39,800 nt of DNA from Bacteroidota bacterium (lineage in GTDB: Bacteria > Bacteroidota > Bacteroidia > Bacteroidales > GWE2-29-8), in assembly GCA_030706235.1 (NCBI GenBank), contig JAUZOY010000004.1, forward strand, positions 1 to 39,800. The letters run 5' to 3'. Shown piece after piece: positions 20,971-29,986 of the stretch. Position 1 is the first letter of the stretch. Each line of letters opens with the position of its first letter. Position numbers and translations under genes: made by a program. The notes under the pieces were generated by a model. The model did not search any database, had not been told where the DNA came from, and saw only the letters and a program-made list of their open reading frames with translations.

Positions 20971-22083
20971 TTATTCGTGGAAAATTCTGATTTTATGTCC
21001 TCCATCCTTAAGGTATTTTTGACGTTTGAAATAATTCAAATCTGCTTCCATCATTTCTTTTACTAAACCATGCAGATTATATTTTGGAGTCCATCCAAGT
21101 TTACTTTTTGCTTTTGATGCATCTCCAATCAGCAAGTCAACTTCTGTAGGACGAAAATAATTTTTGTCAATGAGAACAACTTCTTTACCTATTTCAAGCT
21201 GATATTCAGAATTATTACATTTCCTGACTATTCCTTTTTCATCTATTCCACTGCCAATAAATTCAAGTTCGATTCCTACTTCTGCAAATGACATTTTAAT
21301 AAAATCTCTAACTGATGTAGTAATTCCTGTTGCTATAACGAAATCATCAGGTTTGTCTTGTTGAAGAACAAGCCACATTGCTTCAACATAATCTTTTGCA
21401 TGACCCCAGTCTCTTTTAGCATCAATATTTCCCATGTACAATTCGTTTTGTAAGCCTAAAACAATCCTGGATATTCCTCTGGTGATTTTTCTGGTAACAA
21501 AAGTTTCTCCTCTTTGTGCTGATTCATGATTAAATAAAATGCCATTGGCAGCAAACATATTGTAAGCTTCTCTGTAGTTTACTACTATCCAGTAACTGTA
21601 AAGTTTTGCAACAGCATATGGAGATCTTGGATAAAACGGAGTCTTTTCGTTTTGGGGTACTTCCTGAACAAGACCATAAAGTTCTGATGTAGATGCCTGA
21701 TATATCTTTGTCTTTTCTGTAAGATTTAACAACCGTACTGCTTCAAGTATTCTCAAAGTTCCAAGTCCATCTGCATTAGCAGTATACTCAGGAACTTCGA
21801 AACTGACTTTAACATGTGACATAGCCCCAAGATTATAGATCTCATCTGGTTGTACTTCCTGAATGATTCTTATCAGGTTGGATGAGTCAGTAAGGTCACC
21901 ATAATGCATTCTGAATTTTACATCTTTTTCATGTGAATCTTTATATAGATGATCTACTCTGTCTGTATTGATTAGTGAACTTCGACGTTTAATCCCATGA
22001 ACTATATATCCTTTTTTTAATAGAAATTCTGCAAGATATGAACCGTCCTGACCAGTAATTCCCGTTATTAGAGCTACTTTCAT
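20971..22083 (-). CDS. gmd: GDP-mannose 4,6-dehydratase
   Basis: [69 protein letters not shown] motifs. Confidence 0.97.
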
Positions 22084-22218
22084 TTTTTAAGAATATAATT
22101 TTTTACAAAAATAATATAAAAATTTTAAAAGATTATAAAATTTGAAAACTTATGTAAGTGTATAATTAACTTGTCGGATCAAATCAGACGATATATTACT
22201 TGTGTATTTATCGGGAAA

Positions 22219-23808
22219 TTAGATGGAAGAAACTGATTCCTGAAAATTTATTAAATATTTTGTGAAACTCGGATAATTTTCAATATAATTGATATTATCA
22301 AAATTACAGTGTGACCAATAGTCCAGATCCTGTAAAACCAGAACTTTTTTTCCTAGTTCTGTAGCTTCCTGTATGATGGTTGAATAATAAGAAATTACAA
22401 GACTTGAATTTAAAATAGATTCTCTGCTACTTGAAAAAGTATCATAAAAATATGTTTCTTTTTCAGAATCAATGAAATCACTTAGTTCGTGAGGTAGAAA
22501 AAAAGTTCCGGGATGTTTTCTGATTCTGAAAATGAGCGAATTATCGCTTTTTTTGTGATAATATTTAAGATACTCCAAAATTTTGATGTTATCTTCATGT
22601 ACATCAGATAAACATACCAAAACCTGGGATTTTAAAATATTTTTCGGCTTGATTTTTTCGTTTTTAAATAATTCTATCTTATATATGTTTTTTACTCCCC
22701 ATTCTTTGAAAATTTTATAAGAATTTTCATCATATACAAGAAGATTATCAACCGGAAGATATCCTGTTTTCTGAAGTGGGTATCCATGTTGAAGTATTCT
22801 ATAATTCAGAGATAGCTCACGGCTTAAGTTTATAAATAGTGATGTTCTTGAATGTACTGCTGAATTACTTAATATTAGTTTAGCATTTTTAAAATTTTTT
22901 TTAAAGAATTTTATGTAACAATCTTGTTCGGCAGCAGCCATTGATAAACTACGAAGTAATCTTTTGCGTGGTATATCTTTGTTTATATCGAAACCATAAT
23001 ATTGCCCTAAATCAATTTTTTTAAAGATTATTAAATTAGTGAAATAATTTTTATAAAAATTTCTAAAAAGTGAGAAAGGATTTAGTAATTGTGTAAAATA
23101 TATACATTTTGAGGAATTTACGAGTTTTTTTATTCTTTTGTCAGCAACAAGGTATAAATAATCTTCATTTTTATTGGAAATATATAAATTTAACCTTTTT
23201 ATCATTGACTGATTATATGTGTCATATACAACAAAATTTTCGTATTGTTTATAATGCTTAATATTTACGGGGATGGAAAATAGATTTTTAATATGTATGA
23301 TCATCCATTCTAACCAAAAGAATCTCAATGTATAATGTATTCTTGAAAATAAAGTTTTTTTTTCAATTTTCTCCGGATCAGCGAAGAAAACATTAATATT
23401 TCCTGAATATTTTAGTTTTTTATAAAGTGTTTTATCATCGACAATAGCTATGAAATCATTTTGTTTTTCATATTTTTTAAGTATGTCTGTAATAATGTAA
23501 ATAGCATAAAATAGTAATTGAAAATGTTCCTGAAGCTTAAGCATAATGGAAACTCCAGGTGAAAGATGTTTCTCTTTTGTTTTAAAATTATGATTAATAG
23601 TGTTTACGGTCTTTTGTATAAAACTATAGATAGAATCTTCTACTTTACTTTTATCTGTTTTATAATATTTAATTTTATTAGGGTCAATTTTATAATTTTT
23701 TAGTAGATTGTTTTGGGTAATAAGGTGATATTCAGTAGAATTGTCAATAAGCCTCTGAAGTTTGTCATTATATTTAATCCTTTTTCTTGTTATAAAGATT
23801 AAATTCAT
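22219..23808 (-). CDS. Putative GT-B-like glycosyltransferase of surface polysaccharide biosynthesis (family uncertain)
   Basis: Inside a glycan cluster; NYRILQHGYPL (QHG motif), FRIRKHPGT and SLVISYYSTIIQEATELGKKVLVLQD resemble capsule/polysialyltransferase-type GT-B C-terminal motifs. Confidence 0.55.
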   Translation of the reverse strand: MNLIFITRKRIKYNDKLQRLIDNSTEYHLITQNNLLKNYKIDPNKIKYYKTDKSKVEDSIYSFIQKTVNTINHNFKTKEKHLSPGVSIMLKLQEHFQLLFYAIYIITDILKKYEKQNDFIAIVDDKTLYKKLKYSGNINVFFADPEKIEKKTLFSRIHYTLRFFWLEWMIIHIKNLFSIPVNIKHYKQYENFVVYDTYNQSMIKRLNLYISNKNEDYLYLVADKRIKKLVNSSKCIYFTQLLNPFSLFRNFYKNYFTNLIIFKKIDLGQYYGFDINKDIPRKRLLRSLSMAAAEQDCYIKFFKKNFKNAKLILSNSAVHSRTSLFINLSRELSLNYRILQHGYPLQKTGYLPVDNLLVYDENSYKIFKEWGVKNIYKIELFKNEKIKPKNILKSQVLVCLSDVHEDNIKILEYLKYYHKKSDNSLIFRIRKHPGTFFLPHELSDFIDSEKETYFYDTFSSSRESILNSSLVISYYSTIIQEATELGKKVLVLQDLDYWSHCNFDNINYIENYPSFTKYLINFQESVSSI

Positions 23809-23881
23809 ATTAGTTTGATTAGTTGTGTGATTTGATAATTTATTTTAAACATTTGCTTGGTTAAAGCCGTAATTTGGTATT

Positions 23882-25036
23882 TTATTGTTTATTATTAACA
23901 ATATTTTTATATACCTCCAGTGTTTGTCTGGCTATTGATTCAGGATGATATCTTTCAAAAGCCAATTCTTTAGCTTTTGAGCCCATCTCTTTAGCAATAT
24001 TTTTATTGTTAATTAAAAAACGTATTTTGTCTCTTAATGTTTTGGTATCATTATTCTTAATAATAAATCCTGTTTCACTGTCTTTGATCATATATGGTAT
24101 ACCTCCTACATTTGAAGCAATTACAGGGACTCCAACTGCATTTGCTTCTCCTATTATCATAGGTGCAGTCTCTGCTTTAGTGGGGAGAACAAGACAGATT
24201 GAATTTGCAATTTGTTCCGGTATTTTACTGTTTTCGATAAATTTGTAATATTTGATTTTAGAATCGAGGTTCTTACTTTTTATATATGGTAATATTACAT
24301 TTTTGTAATATCTCGTCTGATCTGTAGAAATTATTAACAAAAAAACATTTTCTATTGACTCAATTGCTTTAACAATTTCAAATAATCCTTTTCTTTCTAC
24401 GTCATTACCGATAAACATTATCTGATTTGATTCAAAATTAGCGTTTTTATGAAAAAAATCTTCTGCAACAGAGTTGCAGATATAATATTTATTGATTTCA
24501 GGATTAATATTTTTTATTGAATCTTCAACGTATTTTGAAATTAAGATTAAATTTTTAATTTTTTTCAGAACTTTTTTCTCTACTTTAATTCCGTAAAGCA
24601 ATCTTAATTTATTTTTAAATCCAATAGCAAGTTTATAAAAATCTTTTGTAAGTCCATGAAGTGTAATAACCGAAGGATAATCAAGATTTATAACTTCGTT
24701 AGCAGGAAATTCAGTAGATTGTCCATGAATAATATCAGGTTTTATATCGTCAATTAATTTATAAAGTTTTTGTTTCTCCCTTTTAAAGTTTGTTAGAAAT
24801 TTTGATACTGAATCTGATGGTTTCAGGTAATGAATTATTACATCATTAACTGTAATTTCCTGATCAAATGTAATTTCTTTATTAAATGTAATGATATGGA
24901 CTTCATTTTCTAATTTAACCAATCCTTTTGCCAGATTAAAAACCCATGGATATGGATGCTGAGGTGTTTGAGATATTAAAGATAATATATCTCTGTTAAT
25001 ATAAGAAGGATACCATGAAAGTATTACAATTTTCAT
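23882..25036 (-). CDS. Glycosyltransferase family 4
   Basis: Rossmann GT-B; IMFIGNDVERKGLFEIVKAIES, LVLPTKAETAPMIIGEANAVGVPVIASNVGGIPYMIKDSETGFII. Confidence 0.92.
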   Translation of the reverse strand: MKIVILSWYPSYINRDILSLISQTPQHPYPWVFNLAKGLVKLENEVHIITFNKEITFDQEITVNDVIIHYLKPSDSVSKFLTNFKREKQKLYKLIDDIKPDIIHGQSTEFPANEVINLDYPSVITLHGLTKDFYKLAIGFKNKLRLLYGIKVEKKVLKKIKNLILISKYVEDSIKNINPEINKYYICNSVAEDFFHKNANFESNQIMFIGNDVERKGLFEIVKAIESIENVFLLIISTDQTRYYKNVILPYIKSKNLDSKIKYYKFIENSKIPEQIANSICLVLPTKAETAPMIIGEANAVGVPVIASNVGGIPYMIKDSETGFIIKNNDTKTLRDKIRFLINNKNIAKEMGSKAKELAFERYHPESIARQTLEVYKNIVNNKQ

Positions 25037-26097
25037 TAATTACCTTTTTTTAAAAGTTTTTTTATTATTTTATCTGTTTCATCAACAACGTCTTCCCAAC
25101 TTCTATAATGATTTTTAGAAGTATCCGGCATTTGATTTGCTACAAAATTATCAATAAAATTTATTATTTCATCAGGATTATTGCCGGGTATAAGATTATT
25201 GAAATTATCTTTTTTTATATGTCCTAACGGAGTTGCAACAACATATAACCCGTTTATCAGATAATCGAAATATTTAAGTGAACTCCCATAAAATCCATAT
25301 CTGGACCAACTGTAATCGCCATAGAGAGCAAGACCTATATTTGAATTAATAGTTAAATAACTAACCGAATCTCTCGATAAATCAGAAAATATAAAAACAT
25401 TTTGTATATTTTTATATTTTTCAATTAATGAGATATCATTGCATATTAATATAAAGGCCGTATTTTTATTGGTTTTAGTTATGATATTTTCAATTATATC
25501 AATCCCTTGCCACGAAGTATTTGTCCCAGACCAAATAACGGTTTTTATGAATGAAGACTTGATTTTATTAACAGCTTCAATTATTGAATCAGGAACATTT
25601 AGTTTACTTATATCAATCTTTTCCCCTCCATTTTCAACTATTACAACATTTTTACATTTTAATTCATTTATGCAATAATTTTTCATGTTTTCGCTGATTG
25701 CTATAACTGTATCTGCATAACTAATAAGCGATTTTAATTTTTTATCATTTTTAATTACCTCATTTTTATTTCTACCAAGCATAAGTAACTCATCTGAAGG
25801 ACTATTGAACTCCACTATGGTTTTTTTACGAAGTAATTTTGCTATCAGAGGTATATAATTTGTCTTTCCGAAATAAATAAAGCGAACATATACTAAATCT
25901 GAGATAAGTATTTTGTAAATCAGAGAGATGATGTTTTTTGATGCTTTAAATGTAAAATCATCTTTTTGATTTTGAAATGTAATGATCTCATATCCTTTAT
26001 TATGAAGACCTTTAGCTAAATAATACCCATGTACACTTGCTCCACCTGTAACCGGGAAAAACTTAGGATAAAAGAAAGCTATTTTAAAATTTTTCAT
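25036..26097 (-). CDS. Glycosyltransferase (GT4-like)
   Basis: YPKFFPVTGGASVHGYYLAKGL N-terminal GT-B signature; KTVIWSGTNTSWQGIDIIENII; YFDYLINGLYVVATPLG; ATG at 26097 preferred over TTG at 26106. Confidence 0.82.
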   Translation of the reverse strand: MKNFKIAFFYPKFFPVTGGASVHGYYLAKGLHNKGYEIITFQNQKDDFTFKASKNIISLIYKILISDLVYVRFIYFGKTNYIPLIAKLLRKKTIVEFNSPSDELLMLGRNKNEVIKNDKKLKSLISYADTVIAISENMKNYCINELKCKNVVIVENGGEKIDISKLNVPDSIIEAVNKIKSSFIKTVIWSGTNTSWQGIDIIENIITKTNKNTAFILICNDISLIEKYKNIQNVFIFSDLSRDSVSYLTINSNIGLALYGDYSWSRYGFYGSSLKYFDYLINGLYVVATPLGHIKKDNFNNLIPGNNPDEIINFIDNFVANQMPDTSKNHYRSWEDVVDETDKIIKKLLKKGN

Positions 26098-26184
26098 TGT
26101 CCGCAAAAATACTATCTATTTCTGTAAACATACACCTTTTTTTATTATTTGTTTATAGTATAAACATAACCTACACAGGTTTCT

Positions 26185-27509
26185 TTAAATTAGAAATTTA
26201 TGTTTATAAATATTGTTGTTAACAGTTGCTATAATAAAATAGGTGCCTTTTTTAAACCTGGAAATGTCAAACTCCTTAATGTTATCATATTGGTTAATGT
26301 ATAAGTCCTTTTGGTATATTAGTTTATTATCAATATCATAAATCATAAAATTAATTTTATCCTCTTTATCAGTATAAACCTGGACATACAATTTGTCTTT
26401 ACCCGGATTTGGATATATTTTAAAAATCTGATCATCTGATTTATTAATTAATTCAGGTTTGATATGTATTTTACCGGTATTGGGAATAGAATTAAATTCA
26501 AGATATTTAGTTCCGTTATTGTTCTCTATTACAAAAGGTAGATTTTTATAGTTTTGGGTTAATGATAGTATGCTTGTCCAGTTAATAGGCATTTTTATTC
26601 TCAATGTAAGAGGAAAATTATAAATACTGTCCGGAAGTTCTTCTGTTAATTCAAAACTATACTCATCATTTGTTATTTTAATAGATTTTATTTCGGCGGA
26701 TTTTCGTTCTTTAATATATCTAATAGCATTCCCAAATGTAGTTACCCAAATTTTGGATTCGTTAGCTTTAATTTAATCAAGATGTTGTTTTAAAAAAGAA
26801 GATTTTATAGGAGAGTAACCATTTGAATCAAGACCATGAATTAGTTCAACAAGCCATCGATTTTGTTTAATGTCAGTGTCTATCAATGAGTCAGCGTACT
26901 CTATTTTAGTAGTTGTATCAAAACTAAAACAATATATTTTATAAAAATTTATATTGTTAACATCTGAGTACCATCGTTCAGTTGATCTTGATCCTATATA
27001 ATAGTTAGAAACTAAATTTATTACATCAGTATTATATTTACCCCGGGGTAACTTAATGACACACATTTTGGGCTTTTAACCTTAGAATTTATTACATCTC
27101 TGGAAACGGACAATTCATAATTACATTCTTCAGGTGAAATATCAGTAAGATTATAATGATTTACTGTATGGCTTCCAATTTCATGTCCTTGGTTTGCATT
27201 ATTAATAACATCTGTCCAGTTAGCAAAAGAATTATGACCGATCAGATTAGTAATTATAAAAAAAGTTGCTTTAAAATTATTGGAGTTTAGCATATCTGTC
27301 GCCTGTCGAAACGGACTGCTATAACCATCATCAAATGTAATTGACAATGCACTTTGTTTATTATTATACCATTGAGTAATATTATAGTCAAGTTGAGAAT
27401 GACTTTTTAAAAAACTTAACAAAAACAACAAAAATAGCATTGCTGTTTTTATTTTAATGTTAAAACTTTCTTTAGAGAAGAATTCTAAATATTTAATCCT
27501 CTGTACCAT
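26185..27509 (-). pseudogene. Polysaccharide deacetylase (NodB-like) with T9SS type A C-terminal domain, disrupted
   Basis: Three ORFs (27021-27509, 26773-27066, 26185-26604) reconstruct one protein: NodB motifs SITFDDGY and HEIGSHTVNH, then SYPG(G)KYNTDVINLVSNYYIGSR after a 1-nt shift at CCCCGGGG (27041-27048), then an in-frame TAA at 26773-26775, then IKANESKIWVTTFGNA... and the CTD IYPNPGKDKLYVQV...FKKGTYFIIATVNNNIYKHKFLI. Confidence 0.82.
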
Positions 27510-28309
27510 ACCCGGATTAAGTTTCTTGGAAAATATCTAAATGGGCAAGCAAATATAAGGAAAATAGTTAAATAGTATGGATTCATAGGGTTTCTTTTAG
27601 AAAAAACATTGTTTTTTAACGAAAAAATGGTCCTTGAATATTTGTTTTGAATACCTGTAGGTTCATTTGTAATCCATAGTTTGAGATTTTCATCTGTAAT
27701 TAATTTATAACCTTTCCGATATGCTCTGATTGTATATTCATAATCTCCACCATAATGCGGTAGTAGTATGTTATGAAATTCTCCTATTTTAAGCATATCT
27801 GAAAATCTGAGAAAAAGCCCTCTTGTAGAAAAACAATTTGCAGGATTTTCCGGAGTCGCGTCATTTATCTTAAATCTCTTCCAGTCTATGCATTTTCCCT
27901 GATCAAATAAGATACCTGAATTCAAATCGTAGGCTTTTGCCAATAATATTGATTGTGAATTAATGTCCATTAATTTTACAGCAGTTTCAAGAAAATTTTC
28001 CTCAAAATATGTATCATTATTAATTAAAAGTACAATGCTATCAGATCCCTTTGCATTATTTATTAGCCATTTATAGCCCTTTTGAAAACAACCTCCGACC
28101 CATAAATTACCATTGCCTTTAATTAATGTTAAAGATTTTATCATTTTTTTTACAAAAATTTCTGTTCCGTCGGTTGAGCCATCGTCAATCAGTAATAAAT
28201 GATAATTTTTATATGTTTGTTTTAAAAGACAATTTATAAATATCTCAGTAATTTTAATACGATTATGTATAGGTACAATTATATAAACGCAAGTATTTTC
28301 CGGTGGCAT
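27485..28309 (-). CDS. Glycosyltransferase family 2
   Basis: VYIIVPIHNRIKITEIFINCLLKQTYKNYHLLLIDDGSTDGT; LLINNDTYFEENFL; C-terminal GGDYEYTIRAYRKGYKL. Confidence 0.93.
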   Translation of the reverse strand: MPPENTCVYIIVPIHNRIKITEIFINCLLKQTYKNYHLLLIDDGSTDGTEIFVKKMIKSLTLIKGNGNLWVGGCFQKGYKWLINNAKGSDSIVLLINNDTYFEENFLETAVKLMDINSQSILLAKAYDLNSGILFDQGKCIDWKRFKINDATPENPANCFSTRGLFLRFSDMLKIGEFHNILLPHYGGDYEYTIRAYRKGYKLITDENLKLWITNEPTGIQNKYSRTIFSLKNNVFSKRNPMNPYYLTIFLIFACPFRYFPRNLIRVWYRGLNI

Positions 28310-28359
28310 TCTTTCTTGTTTGATTATTTTAATTTAATATTTCAGAAAATGACTGTTGA

Positions 28360-29052
28360 TTATTCATTGAATTTCTTATAAAATTCATCAATACTTCTGA
28401 AATAATGTGCATTTTCCTGTATCCAGTTTTTGTCTTTATTCCACCACTTAAACTCATTTAAAAAAGATATTATTTTTTCATCAAATCTTGATTTAATTAG
28501 TTTTGCCGGAATTCCTCCAACAATAGTATATGGCGAGACATCTTTGGTTACAATAGCTCCTGCTGCTATTATTGCACCATCACCGATTTTTATTCCATCA
28601 AAAATAATTACATTATTTCCTATCCAAACATCATTCCCAATTTCTACAACATATTTCTTTTCTTTATCTATATATTTATGTTCTTCAAAAATTGTTTCAT
28701 TTGTATACGTAAAACCTGCCTGTCTGTTTGTAGAAAAAAAAGCTGGATGAATTGAAACAAATTCACTTGCAGGATGCATCCCTATACATGTCCTGACATA
28801 ATCTCCAATAGCACAATAACGACCTATTTTGGTTTTTCTGATTATAGAATTATTTGATATATAAGAACCATAACCTAAGTAACTGTCTAAAATTTCAGTA
28901 TTGTTATTAATAGAATTTCCGCCTTCGAAGAAAGAACTATTATTAATTTTCGATTCCTTGCCTGCAAGTATACCATATTTTTTAATTATCTTTTTTAAGC
29001 GATATTTATCCCTAAAGGATTCCGGTACCAATGAGCGAAAAATTTTTAACAT
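28360..29052 (-). CDS. CatB-related (xenobiotic acyltransferase-type) left-handed beta-helix O-acetyltransferase
   Basis: Hexapeptide repeats; VEIGNDVWIGNNVIIFDGIKIGDGAIIAAGAIVTKDVSPYTIVGGIPAKLIKSRF. Confidence 0.93.
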   Translation of the reverse strand: MLKIFRSLVPESFRDKYRLKKIIKKYGILAGKESKINNSSFFEGGNSINNNTEILDSYLGYGSYISNNSIIRKTKIGRYCAIGDYVRTCIGMHPASEFVSIHPAFFSTNRQAGFTYTNETIFEEHKYIDKEKKYVVEIGNDVWIGNNVIIFDGIKIGDGAIIAAGAIVTKDVSPYTIVGGIPAKLIKSRFDEKIISFLNEFKWWNKDKNWIQENAHYFRSIDEFYKKFNE

Positions 29053-29056
29053 AAAA

Positions 29057-29986
29057 TTATTGTTTTTTTCCTTCCCCTTTTGTTGCTATAAATGAAAATG
29101 AACCGGTAGAATATAATATCCTGTATTTTTCACTTGACCGGTATGAATTTGAAAAGTATGATCCTAACTTCCACCATATTCTATGAAGTAAATAAAGTGG
29201 AAGTACCAATAAATGAGCAAGTGATCGTGATAACCTTGGAAAAAGGCCCATTATAGCCTGTGCTTTCAGAACTGACCATGTTGCACTTGGTGCAACTTTC
29301 TCTATTTCGAATCCACTGGAAGATAGAGAATTGAAAACCCCTAAATGAGAATGGTGGTAAAAACTATTCCCATGAAAAGGTTCCATAAATGCAACAGTTC
29401 CAATTAATTTGCCTTCAGGTTTCAGTACCCTGTAAACTTCTTTCATCATTATAAATGGATTTTGAATATGTTCTAATACCGCAATTGAAAGTATAAAATC
29501 AAAACTGTTATCTTTGAAAGGAAGTGCATGTCCATCTCCCAATATATATGCATCGGATGAATTATCATAATCTAATCCTACATATTCAAAACCGGCGTGT
29601 TCACATACTCCCTTGTGTACAGTAGTCCCACATCCAAGATCCAGCATAATGCATTCCTGCCCTTTTGCTTTTGGAAAATAACTTAATAGTTCATTATTCA
29701 GATGACTTGGCACTTTGAAGTTCGTATAATCTACCTCAGGAAAAGGATTTTTATTCAAAACTTTGAAATCGAAACCTTTTTCCGGTAGAAGATTTGTCCC
29801 AACCTCAAATTGCAGTTGAACAGTTTTCCCCCTTCTAAGTCGAAAATCAATCTGACCTTTATTTGATGTAGTATATTTATCCTGACATACTGTGCATATA
29901 GCCTGATTGTCTGCTATTTTAAGTGGATTTCCGCAATAAGGGCATGCCAGAATATCAATTATTTTTTTTGAAAGTTTAATCTCCAT
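29057..29986 (-). CDS. Class I SAM-dependent methyltransferase with N-terminal Trm112-like zinc ribbon
   Basis: ILACPYCGNPLKIADNQAICTVCQDKY; MLDLGCGTTVHKG; DFILSIAVLEHIQNPFIMMKEVYRVLKPEGKLIGTV. Confidence 0.92.
   Translation of the reverse strand: MEIKLSKKIIDILACPYCGNPLKIADNQAICTVCQDKYTTSNKGQIDFRLRRGKTVQLQFEVGTNLLPEKGFDFKVLNKNPFPEVDYTNFKVPSHLNNELLSYFPKAKGQECIMLDLGCGTTVHKGVCEHAGFEYVGLDYDNSSDAYILGDGHALPFKDNSFDFILSIAVLEHIQNPFIMMKEVYRVLKPEGKLIGTVAFMEPFHGNSFYHHSHLGVFNSLSSSGFEIEKVAPSATWSVLKAQAIMGLFPRLSRSLAHLLVLPLYLLHRIWWKLGSYFSNSYRSSEKYRILYSTGSFSFIATKGEGKKQ

Follow-up and report, generated by a model that had tools for sequence, protein, structure and literature searches.

A CE4/NodB polysaccharide deacetylase gene with a frame change and an in-frame stop in a Bacteroidota glycan-assembly cluster: a probable recent pseudogene

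Enzymes of the CE4/NodB polysaccharide deacetylase family (PF01522) share motif 1 (TFDD), motif 2 (H(T/S)xxH) and motif 5 (LxHG), and their usual motif 3 is R-x-P-[YF]. In Bacteroidota, proteins are found that join a NodB domain to a C-terminal accessory region, and these are unbroken over their catalytic and accessory parts. Ordinary recent bacterial pseudogenes, for their part, may carry one frame change and one nonsense codon in a frame that is otherwise intact. Here we compare with these three systems a gene on the minus strand of a 39,800-nt stretch of contig JAUZOY010000004.1 from an uncultured Bacteroidota bacterium of the order Bacteroidales, hereafter the window. The original prediction had read three consecutive minus-strand ORFs as one T9SS-tagged NodB deacetylase interrupted by a 1-nt frame change and an in-frame TAA, and its coordinates for the ORFs, the tract and the TAA all proved correct. 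The features of the gene are as follows.

27021-27509, minus strand: 5' ORF, 162 aa
26773-27066, minus strand: middle ORF, 97 aa
26185-26604, minus strand: 3' ORF, 139 aa
27045..27509, minus strand: 5' piece, with a signal-peptide-like start and the NodB/CE4 domain (PF01522, E 2.4e-22)
27041-27048, minus strand: CCCCGGGG tract, site of the reading-frame change (tblastn and alignment)
26776..27042, minus strand: middle piece, the later part of CE4 with the conserved motif-5 LxHG His (WLVELIHGLD; homolog alignment)
26773-26775, minus strand: in-frame TAA in ...KQHLD*IKANES... (translation and homolog alignment)
26188..26772, minus strand: 3' piece, with the last conserved catalytic segment, the accessory region and the T9SS type A sorting tail
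26188-26418, minus strand: T9SS type A sorting tail (Pfam and NCBIfam profiles)

Two lesions were directly observed in the assembled sequence. When homologs from other genomes were searched against the window DNA by tblastn, the match of 18 of them began in frame -1 on the 5' piece and went on in frame -3, the two matches being adjacent in both query and subject. In 15 of these 18 the first match ended at 27045 or 27033, i.e., no more than 12 nt from the CCCCGGGG tract, which is composed of four C and four G. Relative to the homologs, which keep YP-x-G at the tract, one residue more than can be read here without a frame change, the window is one base short, not two bases too long. The TAA at 26773-26775 was spanned by the alignments of 22 homologs; 12 of the 21 with a residue in that column have Tyr, two have Phe, and a single substitution is enough to turn a Tyr codon into TAA. 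Frame-by-frame translation gave a first part of 155 residues ending in CVSLSYP and a second part that begins with GKYNTDVI, holds one internal TAA and closes at a natural stop. Past the tract, the 5' ORF stays open in the wrong frame until a stop at 27021, and downstream of the TAA 195 codons are open, through the whole of the sorting tail, as expected from the earlier statement that the rest of the frame is intact. Every piece had a coding score in the frame assigned to it and a non-coding one in either alternative frame, with coding values among the lowest for genes of the window. Homologs from other genomes of the order, unbroken here, align across the three pieces in order, colinear with them, and the pieces together span the full length; on these alignments, the three minus-strand ORFs are pieces of one gene, as had been proposed. 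With the ATG at 27509 as its 5' boundary, the gene shares 25 nt with the upstream glycosyltransferase gene; the ATG at 27440, directly 5' of the hydrophobic stretch MLFLLFLLSFLKSHSQ, is equally likely to be the true start. By eye, this N-terminal stretch looks like a signal peptide.

By its domain matches and motifs, the gene is a broken member of the CE4/NodB family. The 5' piece alone scored 79.6 bits against PF01522 (Polysacc_deac_1; curated cut-off 23.1), and the end of the 3' piece matched both Por_Secre_tail (PF18962, 40.3 bits, cut-off 27, E 3.9e-10) and the NCBIfam profile TIGR04183 (36 bits, cut-off 23, E 5e-9), so that the predicted T9SS-tagged NodB deacetylase was borne out by three profiles above cut-off. 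Its relatives in the PDB are CE4 enzymes, e.g., the peptidoglycan GlcNAc deacetylases 4l1g and 5o6y. In the 5' piece motif 1 is TFDD and motif 2 is HTVNH, and the middle piece supplies motif 5 (LIHG), whose His is invariant in the homolog alignment. The gene differs from other members of the family in its motif 3 region, which reads SYP, in a frame that is broken before motif 5 and in its additional C-terminal accessory region and T9SS tail. Motifs 1 and 2 thus share no open reading frame with motif 5. T9SS genes were found directly: the genome encodes SprA (SprA_N, 461 bits) and 95 sorting tails above cut-off, indicating that the export route is present. Window positions 26455-26730, which link the catalytic domain to the sorting tail, are conserved across the Bacteroidota homologs and have no Pfam match; they may encode an undescribed accessory domain.

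Homologs were sought in a sample of 393 genomes from the order and in a sample from the phylum, in which G001 represents the same family as the window and no genome the same genus. The Bacteroidota proteins with NodB and accessory regions show the same domain order as the window gene and are colinear with it at roughly 25-40% identity. A T9SS tail was detected by Pfam in G007 (L021:4508-5812) and G330 (L135:629-1903) and was not detected in G005, G030 and G025. In the retrieved homolog loci, the catalytic and accessory parts are open; the G025 copy stops early within its sorting tail. A profile of the C-terminal part matched 53 of the 393 order genomes at E<=1e-5, the window's own genome included; G001 gave no match. 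None of the other order matches at E<=1e-30 contains an internal stop (0/27); the match to the window copy contains one TAA. The score of the window copy itself (4.1e-82) was left out as evidence, since that sequence had itself gone into building the profile. Besides G413 and G734 of the phylum sample, three weaker matches in the two samples are partial; of these partial matches, those in G261, G321, G413 and G734 run over one stop. A second copy of the subfamily was not found in the window's own assembly (88% complete). A scan of genome contigs with the 5' piece recovered no relative.

The original prediction had allowed for either recent decay or sequence errors. We surveyed the background of lesions in the same genome. 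The assembly comprises 389 contigs; 40 stretches were examined, six of which (12 kb) read as N, leaving ~393 kb readable, and proteins of G001 and of other relatives served as queries. This yielded 104 homologous segments covering 119 kb. Outside the deacetylase gene, ~118 kb of homology-checked coding sequence held no frameshift and three credible in-frame stops. One is a TGA at L159:5818, by which a GT2 gene 52% identical to its G001 counterpart ends ~20 codons before the end of the homolog; at L181:7689 (TGA) and L187:4429 (TAA), one in-frame stop each splits very large proteins that have relatives in G001. A further stop at L187:2317 was discounted, as it directly precedes an ORF start. 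The reverse test on G001 revealed no lesions in 196 kb. A gene of 1.3 kb would thus be expected to carry ~0.03 lesions and two were seen (Poisson P ~6e-4, or ~0.06 once all 104 segments are allowed for). Given this expectation, finding both lesions in a single gene speaks for decay rather than sequence error, relaxed selection fitting better than scattered errors.

It is conceivable, if unlikely, that the organism carries an intact gene and that at least one of the lesions arose as a consensus or assembly error, or from collapsed strain variants, in this metagenome assembly. The fragmented and incomplete state of the assembly is in keeping with this, as is the otherwise intact frame, and the three other in-frame stops, against none in G001, indicate that the consensus may carry errors; a dip in local coverage could even place two of them in one gene. 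However, errors of this kind would have to account for two independent lesions of different types in the same gene and for a frame change found nowhere else in the checked coding sequence, at a tract that contains no long homopolymer. Two further explanations, both of which we rejected, take the sequence as it stands. A -1 slip at C_CCC and then read-through at the stop could in principle give the full-length protein, since the frame change is of a kind that such a slip can bridge and the P-site CCC could re-pair on the preceding C. The A-site GGG, however, does not re-pair following the slip, one mRNA would need two rare events, and the homologs are encoded without recoding, making programmed recoding the least credible of the explanations considered. 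Scarcely more probable is that the pieces are separate functional proteins, the first ORF being, e.g., a short NodB protein. Each piece does offer a possible start codon, but the later ones fall within sequence homologous to the middle of full-length proteins, the motif-5 His is missing from the first ORF, and no signal peptide precedes the later pieces, whose sorting tail would then not be delivered to the T9SS.

We therefore return to decay of the gene, which we consider probable: a recently inactivated pseudogene whose intact form would have encoded a secreted CE4/NodB deacetylase with a T9SS tail. The intact product would have consisted of a signal peptide, the CE4/NodB domain, the accessory region and the T9SS type A tail, and would have crossed the inner membrane via Sec before export by the type IX system. 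Judging from the families concerned, the exported enzyme would have deacetylated a polysaccharide outside the cell. The one-base frame change lies within the CE4 domain, between motifs 3 and 5, such that the first product would end before the motif-5 His. Independently, the TAA, which falls late in the catalytic part and ahead of the conserved segment WVTTFGNAIRYIKER, would remove the accessory region and the sorting tail that follow. Either lesion by itself should abolish an active, exported enzyme, again on family grounds. That both lesions are genuine, that an active enzyme was once made and what kind of substrate it acted on are inferences. Disabling lesions stand here against intact homologs, and the gene shows no notable difference from ordinary recent bacterial pseudogenes, with a likewise single frame change and single nonsense codon; it is probably an ordinary, recent pseudogene of a known kind of enzyme. 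Most likely, then, the lineage has lost one exported carbohydrate-modifying enzyme, and the two sites give a base-level reason to check the reads ahead of annotation.

The gene lies inside a glycan-assembly cluster, in agreement with the original prediction. The surrounding genes are listed below.

29057-29986, minus strand: methyltransferase, upstream
28360-29052, minus strand: hexapeptide acyltransferase, upstream
27485-28309, minus strand: GT2 glycosyltransferase, upstream
25036-26106, minus strand: GT4-type glycosyltransferase, downstream
23882-25036, minus strand: GT4-type glycosyltransferase, downstream
22219-23808, minus strand: uncharacterised 529-aa protein without a Pfam match, downstream
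20971-22083, minus strand: gmd, downstream

In minus-strand order, the deacetylase gene thus falls between the GT2 gene and the two GT4-type genes. No flippase or polymerase was recognised in the part of the cluster scanned (window positions 20971-29986), and so the pathway may be incomplete here. Neither an Rfam scan nor a tRNA scan of the window gave a hit. It had also been suggested that loss of the gene could change the surface glycan of this strain; the location in the cluster stands, the effect on the glycan did not gain support, and such a change is possible. An external polysaccharide is as plausible a target as the cell's own surface glycan, since most homologs whose neighbourhoods were listed lie outside glycan-assembly clusters and two of them, in G030 and G154, adjoin SASA-type carbohydrate acetylesterases. 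A GH43 enzyme is also found in the G030 neighbourhood.

Among the listed neighbourhoods, only that of G025 and, in part, that of G330 resemble the cluster in the window. In G330 an epimerase-family gene adjoins the deacetylase, and in G025 gmd and an fcl-like epimerase are followed by the deacetylase and another epimerase-family gene. A break suspected in the fcl-like gene of G025 was ruled out, its frame being open. It is very doubtful that cluster-borne deacetylases of this subfamily are repeatedly switched off, the window and G025 being two cases and far too few; if true, surface-glycan acetylation would be altered recurrently by loss of an exported deacetylase. The loss described here would have little importance outside the lineage unless the truncated, cluster-borne copy of G025 is part of such a pattern. 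In that copy, a premature in-frame TAA is located inside the T9SS sorting tail (L023:10960-10962), and reading resumes after it (YILHIDSRNSGKLTTKMVKS).
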